Origin: Schaalia turicensis ACS-279-V-Col4
GTDB lineage: Bacteria > Actinomycetota > Actinomycetes > Actinomycetales > Actinomycetaceae
Reading direction: 5' to 3'
NCBI RefSeq assembly: GCF_000296505.1
Contig: NZ_JH815211.1
Coordinates: forward strand, 5,729-69,728
DNA length: 64,000 nt
Shown here: positions 3,082 to 34,919 of the stretch, in pieces
How the letters are laid out: each line of letters starts with the position of its first letter
How positions within the stretch are numbered: position 1 is the first letter of the stretch
Made by a program: the position numbers and the translations under genes
Notes under the pieces: generated by a model
What the model saw: the letters and a program-made list of their open reading frames with translations, nothing else
Databases searched by the model: none
Told to the model about the DNA's origin: nothing

Positions 3082-3190
3082 ACGCTCCCGGCCTCGTCAC
3101 TTCTTTTCGGCGACCAACTGGCCGTTATACCCCTGTCACGGCGCGCAACGTGTTTGCGCGAACGACGCTTGAGCGCCTTGGCATACACGA

Positions 3191-3226
3191 GTTTCGCCCC
3201 CGCCGAAAAACCGACGAGGGCGAAAC
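3191..3226. terminator. Hairpin between convergent ATPase and chvE genes
   Basis: An inverted repeat of about 15 bp (arms 3191-3205 and 3211-3226) with an A/T loop lies between two convergent genes. Neither strand has a strong U-tract, which is common in this lineage, so it is a probable bidirectional terminator. Confidence 0.55.
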
Positions 3227-3263
3227 CAAAGGTGAGAAAACTAGGCGATACCTAGCGGGTCAA

Positions 3264-4391
3264 TCACTTGGCAGCGTTGACGAGCTCCATGCGGTGCGAG
3301 TCATCCTTGTAGACGTCTGCAGCGTTGTCCTTGGTGACAATCTTCGGGGTCAGCAGGAAGGACTTGACCGGGTTGCCTTCCATCGACTCGTACTGGGAAT
3401 CGTCGAGGGTTGCGCCGTCGACCTTCGGGGCTGCCTCGCCCTTGGCGAGCTGGATAGCAAGATCAACAGTTGCCTTCACCAGCGGACGAGTGTCCTTGAA
3501 GATGGTGGAGTACTGCTTGCCCTGGGTGACCCAGGTGACCGACTCGTCTTCGGAGTCCTGACCAGTCACAACCGGAACCGGCTTGCCGGCCTGCTCAACA
3601 GCGGTGATGATTGCGCGGCCAAGGGTGTCGTTCGGGGAAAGAACGCCATCCGGAACCGCGTCGCCCTGGTAGGTCGAGGTCAGCAGTGCTGCCATGCGGT
3701 CCTGAGCATTCTTCGGCAACCAGCCCTGGGTGGCGACCTGCGTGAATTCGGTCTGCCCGGACTTCACAACCAGCGTGCCATCATCAATCTTCGGTTGGAG
3801 GACGTCCATTGCGCCACCGAAGAACTTCAAGGAGTTCGAGTCATCCGGGGAGCCACCGAAGAGCTCGATATCCCACGGGCTCTCGCCAGCGTTGGCTTCG
3901 AGACCTTCAAGCAATGCCTTGCCCTGAAGCTGACCAACACCGAAGTTGTCGTAGGCGATGTAGTAGTCAAGGTCGGTCGTGTTCGTCAGCAGACGATCGT
4001 ATGCGATGACCTTGATGCCGGCATCCTTGGCTGCCTTCAGCTGGGTACCCAGCTGCGAACCGTCGATTGCGCCGATCACCAGAACCTGCACGCCATTTTC
4101 GATCATGGCTGCAACCTGGTTCTGCTGCTCAGCAACGCCACCGTTTGCGAACTGAATGGTGCATTCAATGCCCTGCTCTTCGCAGCTGGCCTTGAACATG
4201 TCTTCAGCCTCAACCCAGTTCTGCGAGGTCTTCTGTGGCATTGCGATGCCGACCGACATCTTGTCAGCCGAGGCCGCTGCGCCGGACTGATCGCCCGATG
4301 AGCTACCCGTATCACGGGCACCACAAGCTGCCATAGAGAATGCCATCGCTGCCGCTGCGCTGATGGCAACCGCACTCTTCAGAGTCTTCAT
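3264..4391 (-). CDS. chvE: Multiple-monosaccharide ABC transporter substrate-binding lipoprotein (ChvE type)
   Basis: Extracytoplasmic sugar-binding lipoprotein of 375 aa. The start at 4391 gives a signal peptide MKTLKSAVAISAAAAMAF followed by the lipobox SMAAC; the extended frame to 4436 has no better start. The mature protein has the type-I periplasmic-binding fold pattern (VGIAMPQKTSQNW, VIGAIDGSQLG, NDTLGRAIITAVEQAG). It is the last gene of mmsA-mmsB-chvE. The 156-base gap from mmsB contains a CTCAAC/GTTGAG hairpin, which may allow extra expression of the binding protein relative to the membrane parts. Sugar specificity cannot be read from sequence; the family binds several aldoses. Confidence 0.9.
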   Translation of the reverse strand: MKTLKSAVAISAAAAMAFSMAACGARDTGSSSGDQSGAAASADKMSVGIAMPQKTSQNWVEAEDMFKASCEEQGIECTIQFANGGVAEQQNQVAAMIENGVQVLVIGAIDGSQLGTQLKAAKDAGIKVIAYDRLLTNTTDLDYYIAYDNFGVGQLQGKALLEGLEANAGESPWDIELFGGSPDDSNSLKFFGGAMDVLQPKIDDGTLVVKSGQTEFTQVATQGWLPKNAQDRMAALLTSTYQGDAVPDGVLSPNDTLGRAIITAVEQAGKPVPVVTGQDSEDESVTWVTQGKQYSTIFKDTRPLVKATVDLAIQLAKGEAAPKVDGATLDDSQYESMEGNPVKSFLLTPKIVTKDNAADVYKDDSHRMELVNAAK

Positions 4392-26291: not shown

Positions 26292-26401
26292 GCCTGGCAT
26301 TGGCGGCCTCTGACCTGCTCGGCCAGACGTCGACACCAGCGACGTTCAGCCAGTGGGTGTAGTTCTCGTTTCTGATTGACGAGGCCGCAACCACGGTCGC
26401 G

Positions 26402-28355: not shown

Positions 28356-28382
28356 GATGAAACATAGGGAATAAGGTAGGGA
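28356..28382 (+). repeat. 27-bp terminal direct repeat, left copy
   Basis: Identical over 27 bases to 34748-34774 and in the same orientation. Both lie about 100 bp inside the attachment cores, a position typical of arm-type integrase sites. The last bases also form the palindrome at 28376-28392. Confidence 0.85.
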
Positions 28383-28392
28383 CTCCCTACCT
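28376..28392. terminator. Palindrome at the end of the integrase gene
   Basis: A perfect 8-bp inverted repeat around one base (GGTAGGGA c TCCCTACC) overlaps the last codons of the integrase. It may end integrase transcription or bind protein at the element end. Confidence 0.45.
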
Positions 28393-29601
28393 TTCCTCGC
28401 GCCGTGCCCGTGCGGCCTCGTAGAGGCTCGTGAGGTCGGATAGATCGCTGTAGGCCTGCGCGTTGACATCGAGCGAGTGCCCGAGTGTTCGAGCACGCAA
28501 TAGCACGTCAACGTCTGTCCGATACAGGGTATTGAGGGTTGTCCGCCAGACGTGCGTTCGGTGCGTTTCCAGCAGGGGCACGTCACACGCTCGGGCAATC
28601 TCTAGGTAGAAGCCCTTGAGGACCTTTTGAGCATTGAATCTGTCCCACTCGGTGTCGGGATTCAACGGCGCACCGACAACATATTGCCCGCCGATCTCAT
28701 CCTTTCGTCGAAGCAGGTGCTCGTACACCGCAGGCTCGACGAGAGCCGCAACACGCGGGTTGCCCGTCTTCGCATTCTCAGCCCTGATGAGACACGCAGG
28801 GCGACCGTTGCCGTCTTCAATGACATCGGACCACAGAAGCGTCCTCGCTTCGCTAACGCGTAACCCCGTGGCCATTTGAAGCAGCGTGAGGTCGATACAG
28901 TTTCGGTGAACAGCTACACGATCTTCGAGTGTGTACCTGCCCCGCTTCGGTGGGTCCACGCCTTCGGCAGGGTCCACTGTTAGGAGGTGCGTGAGTACGC
29001 GGTCGTATTCGGCACTGGTGAGCGCGCGCCCACCTTCGGGTCTCTCGCGTTTCTTTACGTTCCCGAGGTCGATCCGGGCACCAGCGAGGGGGTTGTATTC
29101 GATTACGTCGTCTTTGATGAGTTCTTCGAAGAAGTATCGGCTGGCAACGCCTTTTGCGTGACGGCCACTTTCCGATCCATGCTCGGCGGCGATCTTCTTC
29201 AAGAGTTCTTCGATGGTGCGGCGTCGCGTTACCGAGGCGATCGAGTACCCCTTGAACGCCTCATCGAGGTAGGCAAGGACGGTCTTGTAGCGATTCTTTG
29301 AGTTCTTCGAGAGTTTTGAGGAGTCAGTGACGATGGGTTTGGAGACCTTCTCCAGGTACTCGGTTGCCAGTGATGAGGGCTTCCAGTTACCACCTGTTCC
29401 GCCCTGAGCCAGCAGTTCGGCCGCCTTGGTGTGTGCCCTTGCTCGCGCTTCGCCTTTCGTCGAGCCTGTCGTGTCACGCGAGAGGAGGCGTCCGTCATGG
29501 AGGCGGATTTTCCATTGGATGCGGTATTTCCCGTTCGGTAGACGAACAGGAGTCACTGAGTCGATTGTGTTGGTTCCTGAGGGTATTTGAACTCTAGGCA
29601 T
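28387..29601 (-). CDS. int: Tyrosine recombinase (phage-type integrase)
   Basis: Site-specific recombinase of the element, about 404 aa. It has an N-terminal arm-binding region, a SAM-like core-binding domain (about 85-165) and a catalytic domain with TGLRVSEA (first Arg), HVWR (His-x-x-Arg), LGHS and the nucleophile in NAQAYSDL. The start at 29601 is chosen because TATAAT lies six bases upstream, implying a leaderless message. It acts on the tRNA-fMet site next to its 3' end and diverges from the excisionase-like gene. Confidence 0.93.
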   Translation of the reverse strand: MPRVQIPSGTNTIDSVTPVRLPNGKYRIQWKIRLHDGRLLSRDTTGSTKGEARARAHTKAAELLAQGGTGGNWKPSSLATEYLEKVSKPIVTDSSKLSKNSKNRYKTVLAYLDEAFKGYSIASVTRRRTIEELLKKIAAEHGSESGRHAKGVASRYFFEELIKDDVIEYNPLAGARIDLGNVKKRERPEGGRALTSAEYDRVLTHLLTVDPAEGVDPPKRGRYTLEDRVAVHRNCIDLTLLQMATGLRVSEARTLLWSDVIEDGNGRPACLIRAENAKTGNPRVAALVEPAVYEHLLRRKDEIGGQYVVGAPLNPDTEWDRFNAQKVLKGFYLEIARACDVPLLETHRTHVWRTTLNTLYRTDVDVLLRARTLGHSLDVNAQAYSDLSDLTSLYEAARARREER

Positions 29602-29606
29602 ACCTT

Positions 29607-29675
29607 GATTATACCTAGGGACTGGCAACTGTGGTTCAATTTAACACTGATGTGTTGCCAAAGTTAGGTATGATG
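29607..29675. promoter_or_regulatory. Mirror-image promoter/operator pair between int and the HTH gene
   Basis: Two near-identical motifs of 22-23 bp face opposite ways: minus strand 29607-29629 and plus strand 29654-29675. Each reads GTTGCCA, four or five bases, then TAGGTAT(A/G)AT. The minus copy contains the TATAAT used by int. A regulator binding both could coordinate the two directions. On the plus strand TTGCCA (29655-29660) is also spaced 18 bases from TATTAC. Confidence 0.55.
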
Positions 29676-29819: not shown

Positions 29820-30056
29820 ATGTCTACCCCTACTACTACTTCTACCCTCGTCACCCCCGCTGCCCTCACTGCTGAGGAAGCTGCCACTTATCTCGGCCTG
29901 TCACGGCAAACGCTCGCTAACTGGCGAGTTCGTGGTCTGGGGCCTGCGTATTCGCGTCTTGGAGGCGTTGGTCGTCCGCGCATCGTGTACCTCGTTGAGG
30001 ACCTCGATGCGTTCCTTCGGGCTACTCGTGTCGAGACGACGGGAGGCCAGCGATGA
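29820..30056 (+). CDS. Excisionase-like helix-turn-helix protein
   Basis: 78-aa MerR/HTH_17-type DNA-binding protein with AALTAEEAATYLGLSRQTLAN as recognition helix region and a wing (GRPRIVYLVEDLDAFL). Proteins like this act as Xis or repressor in small integrative elements. TAGGAG precedes the ATG. A CCTAGA/TCTAGG hairpin (29791-29812) covers the leader. It overlaps rep by four bases (ATGA). Confidence 0.82.
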   Translation: MSTPTTTSTLVTPAALTAEEAATYLGLSRQTLANWRVRGLGPAYSRLGGVGRPRIVYLVEDLDAFLRATRVETTGGQR

Positions 30057-32158
30057 CTTCCCCGACCATCACCACCTTCTCCCCCACGAGGGAGGGGCCT
30101 TCGGCCCCGACGCTTGCCCCCGAAGGGGGCACGCCCTCGTGTGAAAACGACTGTCTTTCGACGGCGGAGTGGAACGAAAAACAGGGGTTTGAGGGCATTT
30201 CAGAGCAACCAAAAAACCCGGTCGTTTTAGTCGTTCCGGGTTCTTCGGCCCCTACTTTTCCCTGTAATTCCAACGATAATGCGCGGGACACTGGGCTTGT
30301 GTCCCGCGCAGTCGGTTCAGTCGTTTTTGGGAGTGAAACGACCAAAAACGACTGGAACGACTACTCTGAATCCACACCCGAGGCACTGCGGTTCCTCGGT
30401 CTCGTCGGTACCGATGAGGATCCCTATCGAGACGGGGGGCCGTGGGCTTACGCGAATGAGCCAGGGGGTCGTGTTTTTATGATTACGCAGAACCTGAGCC
30501 ATCCGTCCACAGGCCAGACCCTTATCACCACGGAGCAGGTGGGAAAGGCGCTCGCGAAGAAGGGTGTGAAGCGTTTCGCCTGGATTCTGCACGACAAGGA
30601 TGTGTACACGTCTGCCGAGGTCGCAAAGAACTCCGCCCTCGTCCAGGGGTCACCTAAAGCCCCGCATGTCCACGTTGTGATCCAACGCAGTTCTTTTGCG
30701 TCAATTGCTCAGGTCGCCCGTGCGTTTGGAGTGCCACCGCAGTGTGTGGAGCCAAAGCCCCCGTCGGCGTTTCTCGACCTTGTTGAATACCTCACCCACG
30801 AGAACCCCAAGCAGCAGGCAGCAGGCAAGCATCTTTATGACGACTCGGAGGTTCACGCCTCGAAGGGTTGGGACTGGCGTACCGATCTGGAGGAGCACAA
30901 GATAGCCCGCCAGGAGAAGGGTCTGGGCAAGGCGCTTCAGCGTCGTCGCAAGGAGGCCGCTCTCAAGGTTGCCGGTGGTGAGTGGAGCCTCGATCACGTG
31001 CGTAAGCACGACCTTGAACTCTGGTCAGCGCCGGGGGTGATGAGCCACCTCAAGGGCCTGCGGGCCGACTATCTGGCCAGTTTGGCCCCTCCCCTGGAGG
31101 TCGTGAACTTTTATGTTTTTGGGCCTGGTGGTGTAGGCAAAGACCTCCTCGCTCATGCCCTCGCTCGGTCCCTCAACCCGACGGCGGAGAAGCCCTACTT
31201 CACCGTGGGCGGGTCGAACGTTTCATTTGAAGACTACGACGGCGAGGAGGTCATCATCTGGTCGGATTTTCGAGCTTCGACCATGCTTGACGCTTGTCGT
31301 CGAGACCGGGGTCTGTTGTTCCGGGTCCTGGGTCCGTACCGCGACGCCTCGGAGAAGGTCATCGTCAACGTCAAGGGTTCTCACACACAGTTGGTTAACC
31401 GGGTCAACATCGTCACCGGGCCTGACGATTACAAGACGTTTCTCAACGGCCTTGCTGGGGAATACGCCTACACAAACAGGATGGGGGTCAAGGTCGTCCA
31501 GACCTCGGAGAACAAGGATCAGGCATACCGCCGTTTTCCCCTCATCATCCCGGTGCAGGAGGGTGAGTTCTCGATCTACGTGAACCTCGGCTTTCTCAAC
31601 GGCACCCGCGAGTACGACCAGTACGAACGCCATGAGCGGCTACGCCACAACCTCGAACTCTTGAACCGCCGCTGCCAGGCGATCACCGATGCCGCCGAAC
31701 GGGAGTCCGCGATTCGCCAGATCGAGGCGCGCACCGTCGCGCCGATCCTGGAACAACGCGCCCGGCTAACCGGCTCGGACGACGAGTCCGTGAGTGTCGA
31801 CGACATCTTGAGTGAGTTCGCAACTGCCGGACAAAAGATCATTGAGCCGGAGCCCACGCCAGAGGAGATTGAGGCGGGCGAACGAGCCGAGGCAAACGCC
31901 CGGACGTGGGCTGTTGCTCATCAGGCACTAGACATCATCGAGGCCGACCGGAGGGCCGCCGAGTACAAGGCTGCTGAGGAGCGGCGCAAGGCCAATGAGC
32001 TGGCCCGGGAGCAGCGCGAGCGGGAGATGCTCGCGGCGAAGAAGGCCGAGCTCGCGGCCGCCGGACAACTCGACCTCATCCCGAAGGTGGGGATTGAGTA
32101 TATCGACGGCAAACCACGGGCAACACTTCCTCGTCCAAAGAACCAGTGGGACCTCTAG
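30053..32158 (+). CDS. rep: Replication initiator: HUH endonuclease plus SF3-like helicase
   Basis: 701-aa Rep-like protein. The first ~140 residues are low-complexity and overlap a hairpin cluster. The HUH nuclease follows: motif 1 about MITQNL, the HUH pair in PHVHVVIQ, and a Tyr in LVEYLTHENP. An SF3/P-loop domain has GPGGVGKD where S/T usually ends Walker A, and EVIIWSDF at Walker B. A charged coiled-coil tail ends the protein. The layout recalls rolling-circle Reps of plasmids related to CRESS viruses. The start at 30053 couples to the HTH gene and has GGGAGG; an ATG at 30479 right before the HUH domain is the alternative. Confidence 0.82.
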   Translation: MTSPTITTFSPTREGPSAPTLAPEGGTPSCENDCLSTAEWNEKQGFEGISEQPKNPVVLVVPGSSAPTFPCNSNDNARDTGLVSRAVGSVVFGSETTKNDWNDYSESTPEALRFLGLVGTDEDPYRDGGPWAYANEPGGRVFMITQNLSHPSTGQTLITTEQVGKALAKKGVKRFAWILHDKDVYTSAEVAKNSALVQGSPKAPHVHVVIQRSSFASIAQVARAFGVPPQCVEPKPPSAFLDLVEYLTHENPKQQAAGKHLYDDSEVHASKGWDWRTDLEEHKIARQEKGLGKALQRRRKEAALKVAGGEWSLDHVRKHDLELWSAPGVMSHLKGLRADYLASLAPPLEVVNFYVFGPGGVGKDLLAHALARSLNPTAEKPYFTVGGSNVSFEDYDGEEVIIWSDFRASTMLDACRRDRGLLFRVLGPYRDASEKVIVNVKGSHTQLVNRVNIVTGPDDYKTFLNGLAGEYAYTNRMGVKVVQTSENKDQAYRRFPLIIPVQEGEFSIYVNLGFLNGTREYDQYERHERLRHNLELLNRRCQAITDAAERESAIRQIEARTVAPILEQRARLTGSDDESVSVDDILSEFATAGQKIIEPEPTPEEIEAGERAEANARTWAVAHQALDIIEADRRAAEYKAAEERRKANELAREQREREMLAAKKAELAAAGQLDLIPKVGIEYIDGKPRATLPRPKNQWDL
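30085..30361. repeat. Cluster of inverted repeats at the 5' end of rep (origin-like)
   Basis: Within 277 bases: a three-way junction (outer arms 30085-30092/30134-30141 enclosing hairpins 30094-30108 and 30116-30130); arms 30215-30221/30236-30242 with a TCGTT direct repeat in the loop; a perfect 11-bp stem 30281-30291/30299-30309; and a 20-base inverted repeat 30311-30330/30342-30361 with 18 matches. This density is typical of a nicking origin. It lies inside the frame of rep. Confidence 0.75.
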
Positions 32159-32206
32159 CCGTTCCACAATCAGACCACCAACCAACCCAACGAAAGGAAC
32201 AAAATC

Positions 32207-32551
32207 ATGACCAAGACATCAGCCGAGATCGAGAAGGAATTGGAGCAGGCGAACACCCGCGCCCGGACGCTCCGCAATCAACTCAAGCGTGCACGCGCGG
32301 ATGAATTGCTTTCCGCAAAACAGGCCCTCGGAGAGGCCGTTGCAACCCTCGTTTTTGCGGAAACGACAGAGGCGATTCAGGCCGTCATCCGTACCCTGGA
32401 TGACCCGGTAATCGCCGATGAACTGCGTCGTGTTTTCGATGCGAACAGCACCGAAAACGACGTTCCCGAGGAGCACGAGAACGAGTCCCGGTGGGGCTCG
32501 GACGAGGGCGACGATCAGCCGGGAACCGATGTGCCACCGGCACAGTGGTGA
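32207..32551 (+). CDS. Small coiled-coil accessory protein of the element
   Basis: 114 aa, not recognised by family. The first half is a heptad-patterned helix (EIEKELEQANTRARTLRNQL), and the tail is acidic and probably disordered. Placed between rep and the hairpin array before the relaxase, where mobilization accessory proteins often lie. A good AAAGGA site precedes the ATG. Confidence 0.6.
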   Translation: MTKTSAEIEKELEQANTRARTLRNQLKRARADELLSAKQALGEAVATLVFAETTEAIQAVIRTLDDPVIADELRRVFDANSTENDVPEEHENESRWGSDEGDDQPGTDVPPAQW

Positions 32552-32560
32552 CCGGCCTCT

Positions 32561-32849
32561 GGTACCACCCGGAAAGACCGAGCGAGCGAGGTATTGAAGG
32601 GTGGTACCGCCCCTGCGGAGCAGCCCCCGGACACTGGAGCGAAGCGTAAGTGTCTTAGGGGGTTAATACACAGGTGTAAACACGGGGAGCGAAAGCGAGG
32701 GTCCCGTGGTTACAGCTGTGTGACCCGTGGGGCAAATCTTTGGGCAGGGAGCAACGCGACCGGGGACCCGAAGATTTGGCACACGGATGCGGTGGAGGCG
32801 CGAGAAGGGGCAAGCGACCGCAGGGAGCAGGGGTCCCCGCTCGCACCGC
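32561..32849. repeat. Array of five consecutive hairpins before the relaxase (oriT or structured RNA candidate)
   Basis: Stems: 32561-32570/32599-32608 (10 bp perfect); 32624-32635/32649-32662; 32668-32686/32703-32721 (17 of 19 paired); 32725-32744/32767-32786; 32789-32810/32835-32849. Most loops carry a related purine-rich motif such as GGAGCGAAGCG, GAGCGAAAGCG or GGAGCAACGCG. The region fills the gap between two genes. An overlapping 102-codon frame exists but its composition follows the hairpins, so I treat it as non-coding. Confidence 0.78.
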
Positions 32850-32898
32850 CAACGCGACGACAAACGAGAGAACAACATGAACGAGTGAGGCGAAGAAA

Positions 32899-34329
32899 AT
32901 GAGCGACGCAACAGGACGCACCGGCTTTCGGGTCACGCACACGAAACCCGTTGGGGAACGGCGCGCGATTGTCCATGAAATGATGCGCGAGCTCGACCCA
33001 AAGGCGGTCGAGTATTGGGCACGTGAGAACACGAATATCGTCGTTGAAGATGAGGTTCTTGACCGCGCGTTCGTCAACGACGGCACGGGCAAGTTTGTTC
33101 GAGCAACCTCGATGCAGCAGGTACTCGATTACGGGCAATCGAGGGTGGATCGTTTGAGTTCACCGTTGCGTGAGGACAAGCCGGACAAGAAGGGCAAGAT
33201 GCGGGGCGGCACGGTGACGACTTCGATGTTCGTCGCTCACCTTCCGAAGAGCATGTGTCGGGAGGTTCCCGACTTCTATGGTAAGGGCCGTTCCCGTTGG
33301 ATCGCACGCGATCGCGACGAAGCCCAGCGCTACTTTACGGACGTTGTGCGTTTCCTCGGAAACAACGTCGTCCCCGGCGGGTTCGGCGCGATCCTCGGGT
33401 TCGACATTCAGCATTCGGAGACGACGCCACACATCCAGCTTCTCGCGGACACGTTCGCCGATGACCCAAAGCATGAAGGCAACCTGCGTCCTGAGTGGTC
33501 GCGCGCGTATGCTGCGCACCGTGACGTGCGCGGTGAGGACGGGAAAATGGTCACAGGGCGCGAGAAACTTGAGCGCTATCAAGATGATCTCAAGGCGTAC
33601 ATGGTCGAACGCGGTTGGCCGGTCGAGCGTGAGGTCGATGCTCTCCGACACGACAAGACTGCGACGAAGGCGACGTACGGCGCATTGAGGGACGAACGTC
33701 GTGATCTCGACGAGAAGCGCGAGCAACTCAAGGCCGATCGTGAGGAGTTGATCCGCGACGGTGAGGACCTTGAGCGTGAAGAGTACCGGGTCAGTCTCGC
33801 TCGCAAACAGGTCGAGAAAGACCGCGCAACTGCTCGCGATGAAGGCCGACACGAGGGCTACGAGCAAGGTCATGAGGAGGGTCTCGCCCAGGGTCGGGCT
33901 GAGGTCCAGCGCCTCCAGCAGGCCGCACGCGAGCAGGCCCTCAGGGCGCAGACTGCGGCGCAGGAGGCAGAGCAACACCTCGTCTCTGTCAAGACCGCCC
34001 GCCCCCTCTCGGGGGAACAGGCTCGCAGGTTCTTCGCTGATGGTGTCGAGTTGTTCGCTAGTTCCCTGGTCAAGGAGATCAACGATCCCGCCGTGAAGGC
34101 GCTCATTGAGGCCAAGCGGCAGGTGTATCTCACCTTTGCGAAGTCTTCCGGCTTCGGTGAGCAGATGAAGTCGATGACGACTTACAAGGATCCGGTGCGC
34201 GAGCGTGATCTCAAGCGTCATGAGCACCGTCAACGGAGAGTCGAGCATAACGTTCGCGATGTTGTTGCGAACCTTGCTCCGAGCGACGGGCAGGACACCG
34301 AGCGCGAGGGCGACGGCTACAGCCTGTGA
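32899..34329 (+). CDS. mob: Mobilization relaxase, MobV/Pre-like
   Basis: 476-aa predicted plasmid-type relaxase that nicks oriT and leads the strand into a recipient. The nuclease region shows the family histidine cluster as HSETTPHIQL (H-x-E-x-x-P-H; the third histidine position is Gln). A long charged coiled coil follows (about 270-360, RDLDEKREQLKADREEL), then a helical tail. It starts 50 bases after the hairpin array. Confidence 0.75.
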   Translation: MSDATGRTGFRVTHTKPVGERRAIVHEMMRELDPKAVEYWARENTNIVVEDEVLDRAFVNDGTGKFVRATSMQQVLDYGQSRVDRLSSPLREDKPDKKGKMRGGTVTTSMFVAHLPKSMCREVPDFYGKGRSRWIARDRDEAQRYFTDVVRFLGNNVVPGGFGAILGFDIQHSETTPHIQLLADTFADDPKHEGNLRPEWSRAYAAHRDVRGEDGKMVTGREKLERYQDDLKAYMVERGWPVEREVDALRHDKTATKATYGALRDERRDLDEKREQLKADREELIRDGEDLEREEYRVSLARKQVEKDRATARDEGRHEGYEQGHEEGLAQGRAEVQRLQQAAREQALRAQTAAQEAEQHLVSVKTARPLSGEQARRFFADGVELFASSLVKEINDPAVKALIEAKRQVYLTFAKSSGFGEQMKSMTTYKDPVRERDLKRHEHRQRRVEHNVRDVVANLAPSDGQDTEREGDGYSL

Positions 34330-34379: not shown

Positions 34380-34640
34380 TCACAGGTCGAGAAACACGTA
34401 CACACCCCCGTTAGGGGCATCACACACGGTGTACGAGTGCAGTTGATCGCACTCGTAGAGGTCCCAATCAAAATACCTCACCGCCTCCTCAGGCCAGTCG
34501 CGCTGCATGTACTTGATCTCCTCAGCGAGGTACTCGCCAAACGAGGACCAGTAGCCTTGATAGGCGTCCTCGAAGCGCCCCGGCTCTGCCATGCCACTAT
34601 CAATCCAGAGTTCGAGCGCTTCCTGTATGTTTTCGTTCAT
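34380..34640 (-). CDS. Short ArdA-like antirestriction protein
   Basis: 86-aa acidic protein resembling the C-terminal half of ArdA, a DNA mimic that blocks type I restriction enzymes. The motif FEDAYQGYWSSFGEYLAEE matches the ArdA stretch around DAYQGxxxSFxDYA, and the end YFDWDLYECD...GGVYVF also fits. Usual ArdA is about 165 aa, so this is a half-length version. The start at 34640 follows CGGAGG, and the longer frame is rejected. Location at the edge of the mobile element fits a role in protecting incoming DNA. Confidence 0.68.
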   Translation of the reverse strand: MNENIQEALELWIDSGMAEPGRFEDAYQGYWSSFGEYLAEEIKYMQRDWPEEAVRYFDWDLYECDQLHSYTVCDAPNGGVYVFLDL

Positions 34641-34747
34641 ATCGACCTCCGAGTAGGTGGAGGCCATCTCGGGCTGGGCACTCGGAAAAGCCCGCACATG
34701 GACGAGACGACCTCCAGAGCCTCACTCGGGACGCGACAGCGGCCTGG

Positions 34748-34774
34748 GATGAAACATAGGGAATAAGGTAGGGA
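34748..34774 (+). repeat. 27-bp terminal direct repeat, right copy
   Basis: Identical to 28356-28382 and in the same direction, 96 bp inside the right core. Probable arm-type site for the integrase or excisionase. Confidence 0.85.
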
Positions 34775-34840: not shown

Positions 34841-34845
34841 TCTCG

Positions 34846-34919
34846 TAGCGGGGGCCAGATTTGAACTGACGACCTCCGGGTTATGAGCCCGGCGAGCTAC
34901 CGAACTGCTCCACCCCGCG
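34846..34919 (-). tRNA. Initiator tRNA-Met (CAT), chimeric 3' end
   Basis: A full cloverleaf folds: acceptor CGCGGGG/CCCCGCT with an unpaired position 1-72, D-arm GAGC/GCTC, anticodon stem CCGGG/CCCGG with loop CTCATAA, T-arm GTCAG TTCAAAT CTGGC, discriminator A. The 1-72 mismatch and the three G-C pairs beside the anticodon mark an initiator. The 3' third comes from the mobile element; CCA is not encoded (CGA follows), so the CCA-adding enzyme is needed. The T-stem carries one G-T pair. Confidence 0.95.

Follow-up and report, generated by a model that had tools for sequence, protein, structure and literature searches.

A hairpin array upstream of a MOBV-like relaxase gene as the probable transfer origin of an integrated element in Schaalia turicensis

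What is the function of a row of back-to-back hairpins which fills the spacer between a gene for a 114-aa protein and a relaxase gene in Schaalia turicensis ACS-279-V-Col4? The DNA analysed (hereafter the window: 64,000 nucleotides of contig NZ_JH815211.1, positions 5,729 to 69,728) carries, around this array, a region which looks like an integrative and mobilizable element (IME). With a probability of roughly 0.7 we take the array to be the transfer origin (oriT) of that element, at which a MOBV-like relaxase would nick the second hairpin, HP2. The hairpins, their covariation in relatives, the identity of the folding spacer strand, the association with the relaxase gene and the fold of the relaxase (a middling model) were all computed.

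The hairpin array

The spacer (32552–32898) is 347 bases long and contains five successive hairpins:

32561–32608, + strand: HP1, arms 32561–32579 and 32590–32608, loop GAGCGAGCGA
32613–32623, + strand: mini-hairpin CTGC-GGA-GCAG between HP1 and HP2, read from the sequence, with GCGGAGC at 32615–32621
32624–32662, + strand: HP2, the proposed nick hairpin, arms 32624–32635 and 32649–32662, TTA bulge at 32655–32657
32658–32670, + strand: GGGGG/TTAATACA, putative nick between 32662 and 32663, by comparison with published MOBV nick sites
32668–32721, + strand: HP3, first hairpin past the proposed nick, arms 32668–32686 and 32703–32721, apex GAGCGAAAGCGAGGGT
32725–32786, + strand: HP4, arms 32725–32744 and 32767–32786
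32789–32855, + strand: HP5, imperfect in the window, arms 32789–32804 and 32840–32855

The original prediction, made from the letters of the window, had described a 347-base gap filled by five successive inverted repeats with loops on a common purine theme, and this description holds: the length and all five repeats are present, and AGCG-type purine cores are common to the loops. It missed the mini-hairpin, as well as further hairpins within the upstream 114-aa gene (32310–32556). The DNA fold of 32555–32860 reaches −80.9 kcal/mol, against a mean of −56.7 for shuffled sequences (z −6.1; 0 of 100 shuffles). Values of z −5 or lower also occur at 26361, 30201/30261, 34341 and 34761 (200 windows of 120 nt, 26–38 kb), and as strong folding is thus found elsewhere nearby, it is conservation in relatives, not fold energy alone, which sets the array apart. 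Terminator-like sites in 32100–33000 (five against a shuffle mean of 1.2, four of them on the − strand) were not used in the argument.

Relatives and covariation of the stems

Homologues of the relaxase number 564, 120 of these among the matches listed. Named genomes matched by the relaxase query were Actinomyces culturomici (locus L001), which is the closest, Brevibacterium sandarakinum (L002) and Brachybacterium tyrofermentans (L003), and 10 of 213 genomes of the family of L001 were matched. The order 114-aa gene, spacer, relaxase is kept in four loci (L001, L007, L008 and L009), and L002 keeps HP2 together with two further hairpins (by eye and fold). Three sets of loci were left out: L003, with a transposase-like frame (by eye) in the place of the spacer; L010–L015, in which the relaxase match starts only at residue 100–105; and L016–L017, which are threshold matches.

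Judged from its letters, HP2 appears to share the layout of the MOBV1 nick hairpin, the bulge in its right arm reading TTA or TTT(A) in the window, L001, L002, L007, L008 and L009. In an alignment of these six sequences on the window structure (two of the six rows are near-identical), 92.4% of pairing cells can pair, compared with 77.0% in shuffles; five of 11 pairs vary on both sides (9 of 500 shuffles reach that), with no one-sided change, and no shuffle out of 500, nor any of six slid versions, attained the covariation score of 0.485, against 0.159. The count of additional pair types was unexceptional (153 of 500 shuffles).

For the array as a whole, the 5′ arm of each hairpin was paired with its own 3′ arm and with the 3′ arms of other relatives, and DNA duplex energies were compared; L008 and L009 are near-identical, and L009 was excluded from the means. 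Own and swapped means (kcal/mol) were −16.5 and −6.9 for HP1, −11.7 and −6.8 for HP2, −20.1 and −7.2 for HP3, −20.2 and −8.4 for HP4, and −17.8 and −9.0 for HP5. The stems have changed in step across relatives, and the loops have stayed alike. The original prediction had looked to loss of the stems in homologues, or to translation of an overlapping 102-codon frame, as signs against a structure; the stems are mostly kept through compensating changes, and a + strand frame is open through the spacer in none of five relatives; the 102-codon frame was therefore rejected as a conserved gene. On the − strand a frame is open through the spacer in L001, L007 and L002, and closed in the window, L008 and L009.

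Two observations concern the loci left out. In L003 the transposase-like frame (3105–3965) lies directly upstream of the relaxase, at the expected position of the origin. The loci L010–L015 come from six genomes of the family, each with a relaxase relative minus about the first 100 residues and about 1 kb of hairpin-dense DNA upstream; GC-GNNA-GC occurs in this DNA 17 times on the + strand and never on the − strand (three loci counted: L010, L012 and L015).

The folding strand

Across the six spacers, the apex motifs GC-GNA-GC and GC-GNNA-GC occur 22 times on the + strand (19 and 3) and never on the − strand, where about 2.5 are expected per strand; in the whole window GCGNAGC is found 21 times on + and 36 times on −, that is, without the bias of the spacer. 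Mismatches within the stems (15 stems, 283 positions) are likewise uneven: A.G 23, G.T 14, G.G 5, A.C 2, A.A 2 and C.T 1, against 8.6, 7.3, 9.2, 6.8, 2.0 and 5.9 expected by composition. This tally omits L009, HPe of L008, HP3 of L001 and HP1, HP4 and HP5 of L007 (unequal arms as chosen), with L007 retained for HPe (a hairpin at the end of the 114-aa gene, see below) and HP3. Loop-motif bias and mismatch preference together identify + as the folding strand.

High stability is characteristic of DNA loops such as d(cGNNAg) and d(GCGAAGC). The available text of PMC5815330 describes d(GNA) loops with a closing C-G pair as a known family of stable DNA loops. Only one of the three GNNA loops in the six spacers is of the GNRA type (GAAA), those of L008 and L009 being GTTA; these non-GNRA loops, and the excess of A.G over G.T, lean towards DNA, and a transcript would be of the same strand. 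Rfam 15 gave no family at curated score in the array (only a tRNA elsewhere in the window) and no related match there up to E 5. No sigma70-like promoter site was found in 32100–33000, although actinobacterial promoters may differ.

Folding inside the 114-aa gene

The folding continues upstream into the 114-aa gene (32207–32551):

32310–32363, + strand: HPa, within the gene, slight covariation support
32371–32416, + strand: HPb, within the gene
32430–32460, + strand: HPc, within the gene
32518–32556, + strand: HPe, spanning the stop codon of the gene

Bases 96–345 of the gene fold more strongly than 200 synonymous-codon shuffles in five of five relatives (z −3.7 to −6.4; 0 of 200 each), whereas the first 95 bases show no excess (z −0.5 to +1.1) and control windows (28 of 250 bases, from four relaxase genes and one rep gene) range from z −2.8 to +1.5. 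The − strand scores similarly in this test (z −3.3 to −5.7), which therefore demonstrates pairing, not strand. Some of the single hairpins fall short of significance: HPa in the window (21 of 200 shuffles), L008 (16) and L009 (64), and HPb in L001 (36 of 200). Own and swapped arm means were −14.7 and −10.1 for HPb, −15.7 and −11.0 for HPe, −12.5 and −9.9 for HPc, and −14.8 and −13.2 for HPa. Synonymous divergence in codons 32–114 was lower than in codons 1–31 for seven of ten pairs, equal in one and higher in two; recombination may contribute to this contrast, as the closest relatives differ between the two parts of the gene. The gene itself is real by its homologues (64, the named ones from Actinomyces or Schaalia), so its 3′ part seems to serve two purposes, coding and conserved folding. 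In a model, the protein has a long helix, two short helices and a tail predicted to be disordered.

The relaxase and a search with HP2

The relaxase (476 aa) is probably MOBV-like, its predicted structure, a middling model, appearing closest to MobM. Motif III of MOBV1 is given as HxDExxPHUH in the excerpted text of PMC5090054; the window relaxase reads QHSETTPHIQ and departs from this pattern, and TPHMH is found in L008 and L009.

A covariance model built from HP2 alone and run on the 213 genomes matched six at E 0.01, four known and two new (G089 and G031; 38.4 bits, E about 1e-5), which the window relaxase query had missed. Both new sites lie about 160 bases upstream of a gene for a 421-aa protein, which in one locus (L050) scores 83.2 bits to MobV (E 2.5e-23; NCBIfam cut-off 100) and aligns with the profile of the window relaxase (probability 96.7). 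The gap at L050 folds with z −5.3 and has a long hairpin directly 3′ of the proposed nick, apex GGGCGCAGGGTCCC. The other copy (L051) is near-identical by eye, the protein scan covering L050; the two matches are one independent confirmation, not two. The same model gave only 16.7 bits in L010, L011, L012, L015 and the longer forms L034, L035 and L037, and over 396 genomes of the order it matched only G001 and G031.

Other searches delimit the distribution. The relaxase query matched four of the 396 genomes of the order (two known, two at E about 1e-3) and two of 35 in the genus of G179, both already known; the L002 relaxase matched one of 60 in the family of G002 (itself) and three of 47 in the family of G003 (itself and two coiled-coil matches, E 1e-4 and 5e-4). 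The relaxase had no match in viral contigs and plasmids, nor had the 4.4-kb element DNA or the hairpin region of L010 in plasmids, where the L001 spacer found only two weak pieces of 36–42 bases. Simple loop patterns were discarded: that of HP1 matched 13 viral contigs whose inspected flanks showed no array, and that of HP2, which demands GAGCG and so misses L001, matched two of 394 genomes of the class, as did a reversed control, so the HP2 matches are due to chance.

The surrounding element

The element as annotated consists of:

28356–28382, + strand: left copy of a perfect 27-bp direct repeat, probable attachment site
28387–29628, − strand: tyrosine integrase (Pfam Phage_integrase, 29.6 bits, cut-off 27.1)
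29820–30056, + strand: HTH_17 protein (Pfam, 44.7 bits), possibly an excisionase
30053–32158, + strand: replication protein (Rep) with Rep_OBD and RNA_helicase domains (Pfam, both above cut-off)
32207–32551, + strand: 114-aa protein, candidate relaxosome accessory
32899–34329, + strand: MOBV-like relaxase
34380–34697, − strand: ArdA-like anti-restriction protein, a weak match (Pfam ArdA 22.8 bits, below the cut-off of 27; PHROG anti-restriction E 0.0017)
34748–34774, + strand: right copy of the 27-bp repeat, probable attachment site, about 70 bp from a tRNA-Met gene
34845–34919, − strand: tRNA-Met, adjoining the element

No coupling or secretion protein was named by Pfam among the seven element proteins scanned. 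The weak ArdA-like match sits at the far end of the element. Two strong hairpins lie in the rep frame near its 5′ end (30180–30400; z −6.0, with −9.0 for the 120-nt window at 30261); they may be a double-strand origin, or may indicate a start of rep further downstream. The Rep of L050 (2602–5079), encoded upstream of its relaxase, is 39% identical to that of the window over 586 columns, and both carry the domain pair PF01719 and PF00910.

Proposed mechanism and alternatives

In the oriT reading, the relaxase would recognise HP2 as a folded single strand and cut at its foot on the 3′ side (32662/32663). Transfer would be of the + strand, also the coding strand of the relaxase gene; HP3, HP4 and HP5 would enter first, and the final portion would bring in the hairpins within the 114-aa gene together with HP1 and HP2. 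HP2 would then lie at the 3′ end of the transferred strand, and so be available once more for rejoining. The other hairpins, of which many have GNA-type loops, may fold in that strand and serve as repeated sites recognised by their shape. Relaxosome proteins, with the 114-aa protein as first candidate, could be the readers, as could the relaxase, or priming enzymes of the recipient or host which start the second strand. A common apex on unrelated stems is what such sites would show. Tentatively, then, some 550 nt with about ten hairpins, lying partly over a protein gene, might form a folded single-stranded DNA domain with the repeated apex GGG..GCGNAGC..AGGGTCCC on unrelated stems, its shape being read by the relaxosome or the recipient priming machinery; such a domain would be the equivalent, in DNA, of a structured RNA.

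Position had argued for an oriT in the original prediction, which noted that one or two inverted repeats would normally suffice. The nick-hairpin layout, the MOBV-like fold and the recovery of a MobV-like gene by the HP2 model add to that argument, and the number of hairpins stays odd. Several results weigh against an oriT of MOBV type. For the relaxase, Foldseek itself gave no match at E 0.001, Pfam had no match up to E 10, MobV of NCBIfam scored 21.6 bits against a cut-off of 100, the PDB profile match had E 0.039, and motif III carries Gln at two positions that are His in MOBV1. L002 has HP2 yet few other hairpins and no 114-aa gene. Among the arm swaps, the own-arm pairing of HP5 in L007 (−7.8) is weaker than the mean of the swaps (−9.0), and for HPa the gain is small; moreover, arms were picked from predicted pairing, which biases towards own pairs, and independent sequences are few. 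The nick, its position, the transferred strand and the binders of the extra hairpins we infer.

The original prediction had offered three functions for the array, of which a structured RNA is now disfavoured, and a landing pad for relaxase or accessory protein and a single-strand origin are both viable for HP1 and HP3–HP5. It is possible, though we do not favour it, that HP2 is the oriT and that HP1 and HP3–HP5 form a separate single-strand origin or promoter, at which second-strand synthesis would be initiated by RNA polymerase or primase of the host. Single-strand origins consist of DNA which is folded and orientation-specific, and sso1 of ICEBs1, as described in part of PMC4595007, has three predicted stem-loops and aids stable acquisition. 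TAGCG, with which the CS-6 motif (TAGCGA/T in the accessible text of PMC10378824) starts, occurs on the + strand of four of the six spacers (L001 three times, L007, L008 and L009 twice each) and on none of the − strands. However, TAGCGT is in none of the six, TAGCG is absent from the window and L002, and a single-strand promoter finds no sigma70-like site in 32100–33000.

A structured RNA, for example a small RNA or a leader on the mRNA of the relaxase, is unlikely. The folding strand is sense for rep as well as for the genes of the 114-aa protein and the relaxase, and the stems covary, both of which an RNA could share; loop and mismatch preferences, the lack of an Rfam match and of a promoter-like site disfavour it, and the layout of HP2 is that of a DNA nick hairpin, although none of these points is decisive. 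Very improbable is a double-strand origin or relaxase-like target of the upstream Rep, despite its PF01719 and PF00910 pair, which a study of IMEs in streptococci (PMC5357655, in part) lists as a candidate relaxase superfamily, because the replication gene is exchanged (Rep_OBD/helicase in the window, L001 and L031, D5/DUF5906 in L032, and in L008 a D5/DUF5906 protein without Rep domain beside array and relaxase) whilst 114-aa gene, array and relaxase stay constant, the Reps of the window and L001 are only 26% identical, and the rep frame has a strong hairpin region of its own.

Comparison with known systems

As oriT of the element, the array would extend the MOBV-type transfer origin to integrated elements of actinobacteria, and the HP2 model finds such an origin without protein input. 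Single-stranded DNA, not RNA, seems to be selected for shape here over hundreds of bases, coding sequence included, so that experiments can ask what share of a transferred strand is structure with a function; the role of the hairpins other than HP2 can now be tested too.

Several features resemble single-strand origins (ssoA, ssoU and sso1 of ICEBs1, as far as the published extracts describe them), namely several oriented stem-loops in an element with rolling-circle features; unlike these, the array lacks the CS-6 TAGCGT and has a putative nick hairpin inside it. It also recalls Frpo single-strand promoters, in which transferred-strand DNA folds near the origin (PMC11541004, in excerpt), but has many hairpins instead of one and no −35/−10-like pair was found in 32100–33000, although actinobacterial promoters may differ.

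In layout the array is close to the MOBV1 oriTs of pMV158 and IMESag-rpsI. There, according to the published text available, the stem of the nick hairpin has two parts; its right arm carries a bulge of 3 nt and is nicked where it ends on the 3′ side, and the hairpin lies upstream of the relaxase gene, with the nick in the coding strand of that gene. Their nick sites read TAGTGTG/TTA and TAGTGCG/TTA, compared with a putative TTAGGGGG/TTA here. The MOBV1 oriT as published, again in part, packs three overlapping repeats into about 42 bp; the present array has some ten separate, successive hairpins over about 550 nt of GC-rich DNA, and three overlapping inverted repeats in about 42 bp were not found, weak overlapping repeats at the nick not having been searched for. 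GNA-type loops, the reach into a gene and a relaxase only distantly related are further differences. We found no description of such arrays in searches of the open-licence literature of PubMed Central. MOBV oriTs are known; what appears, as far as we have seen, to be new is one embedded in some ten hairpins that bear GNA-type loops and extend into a gene.
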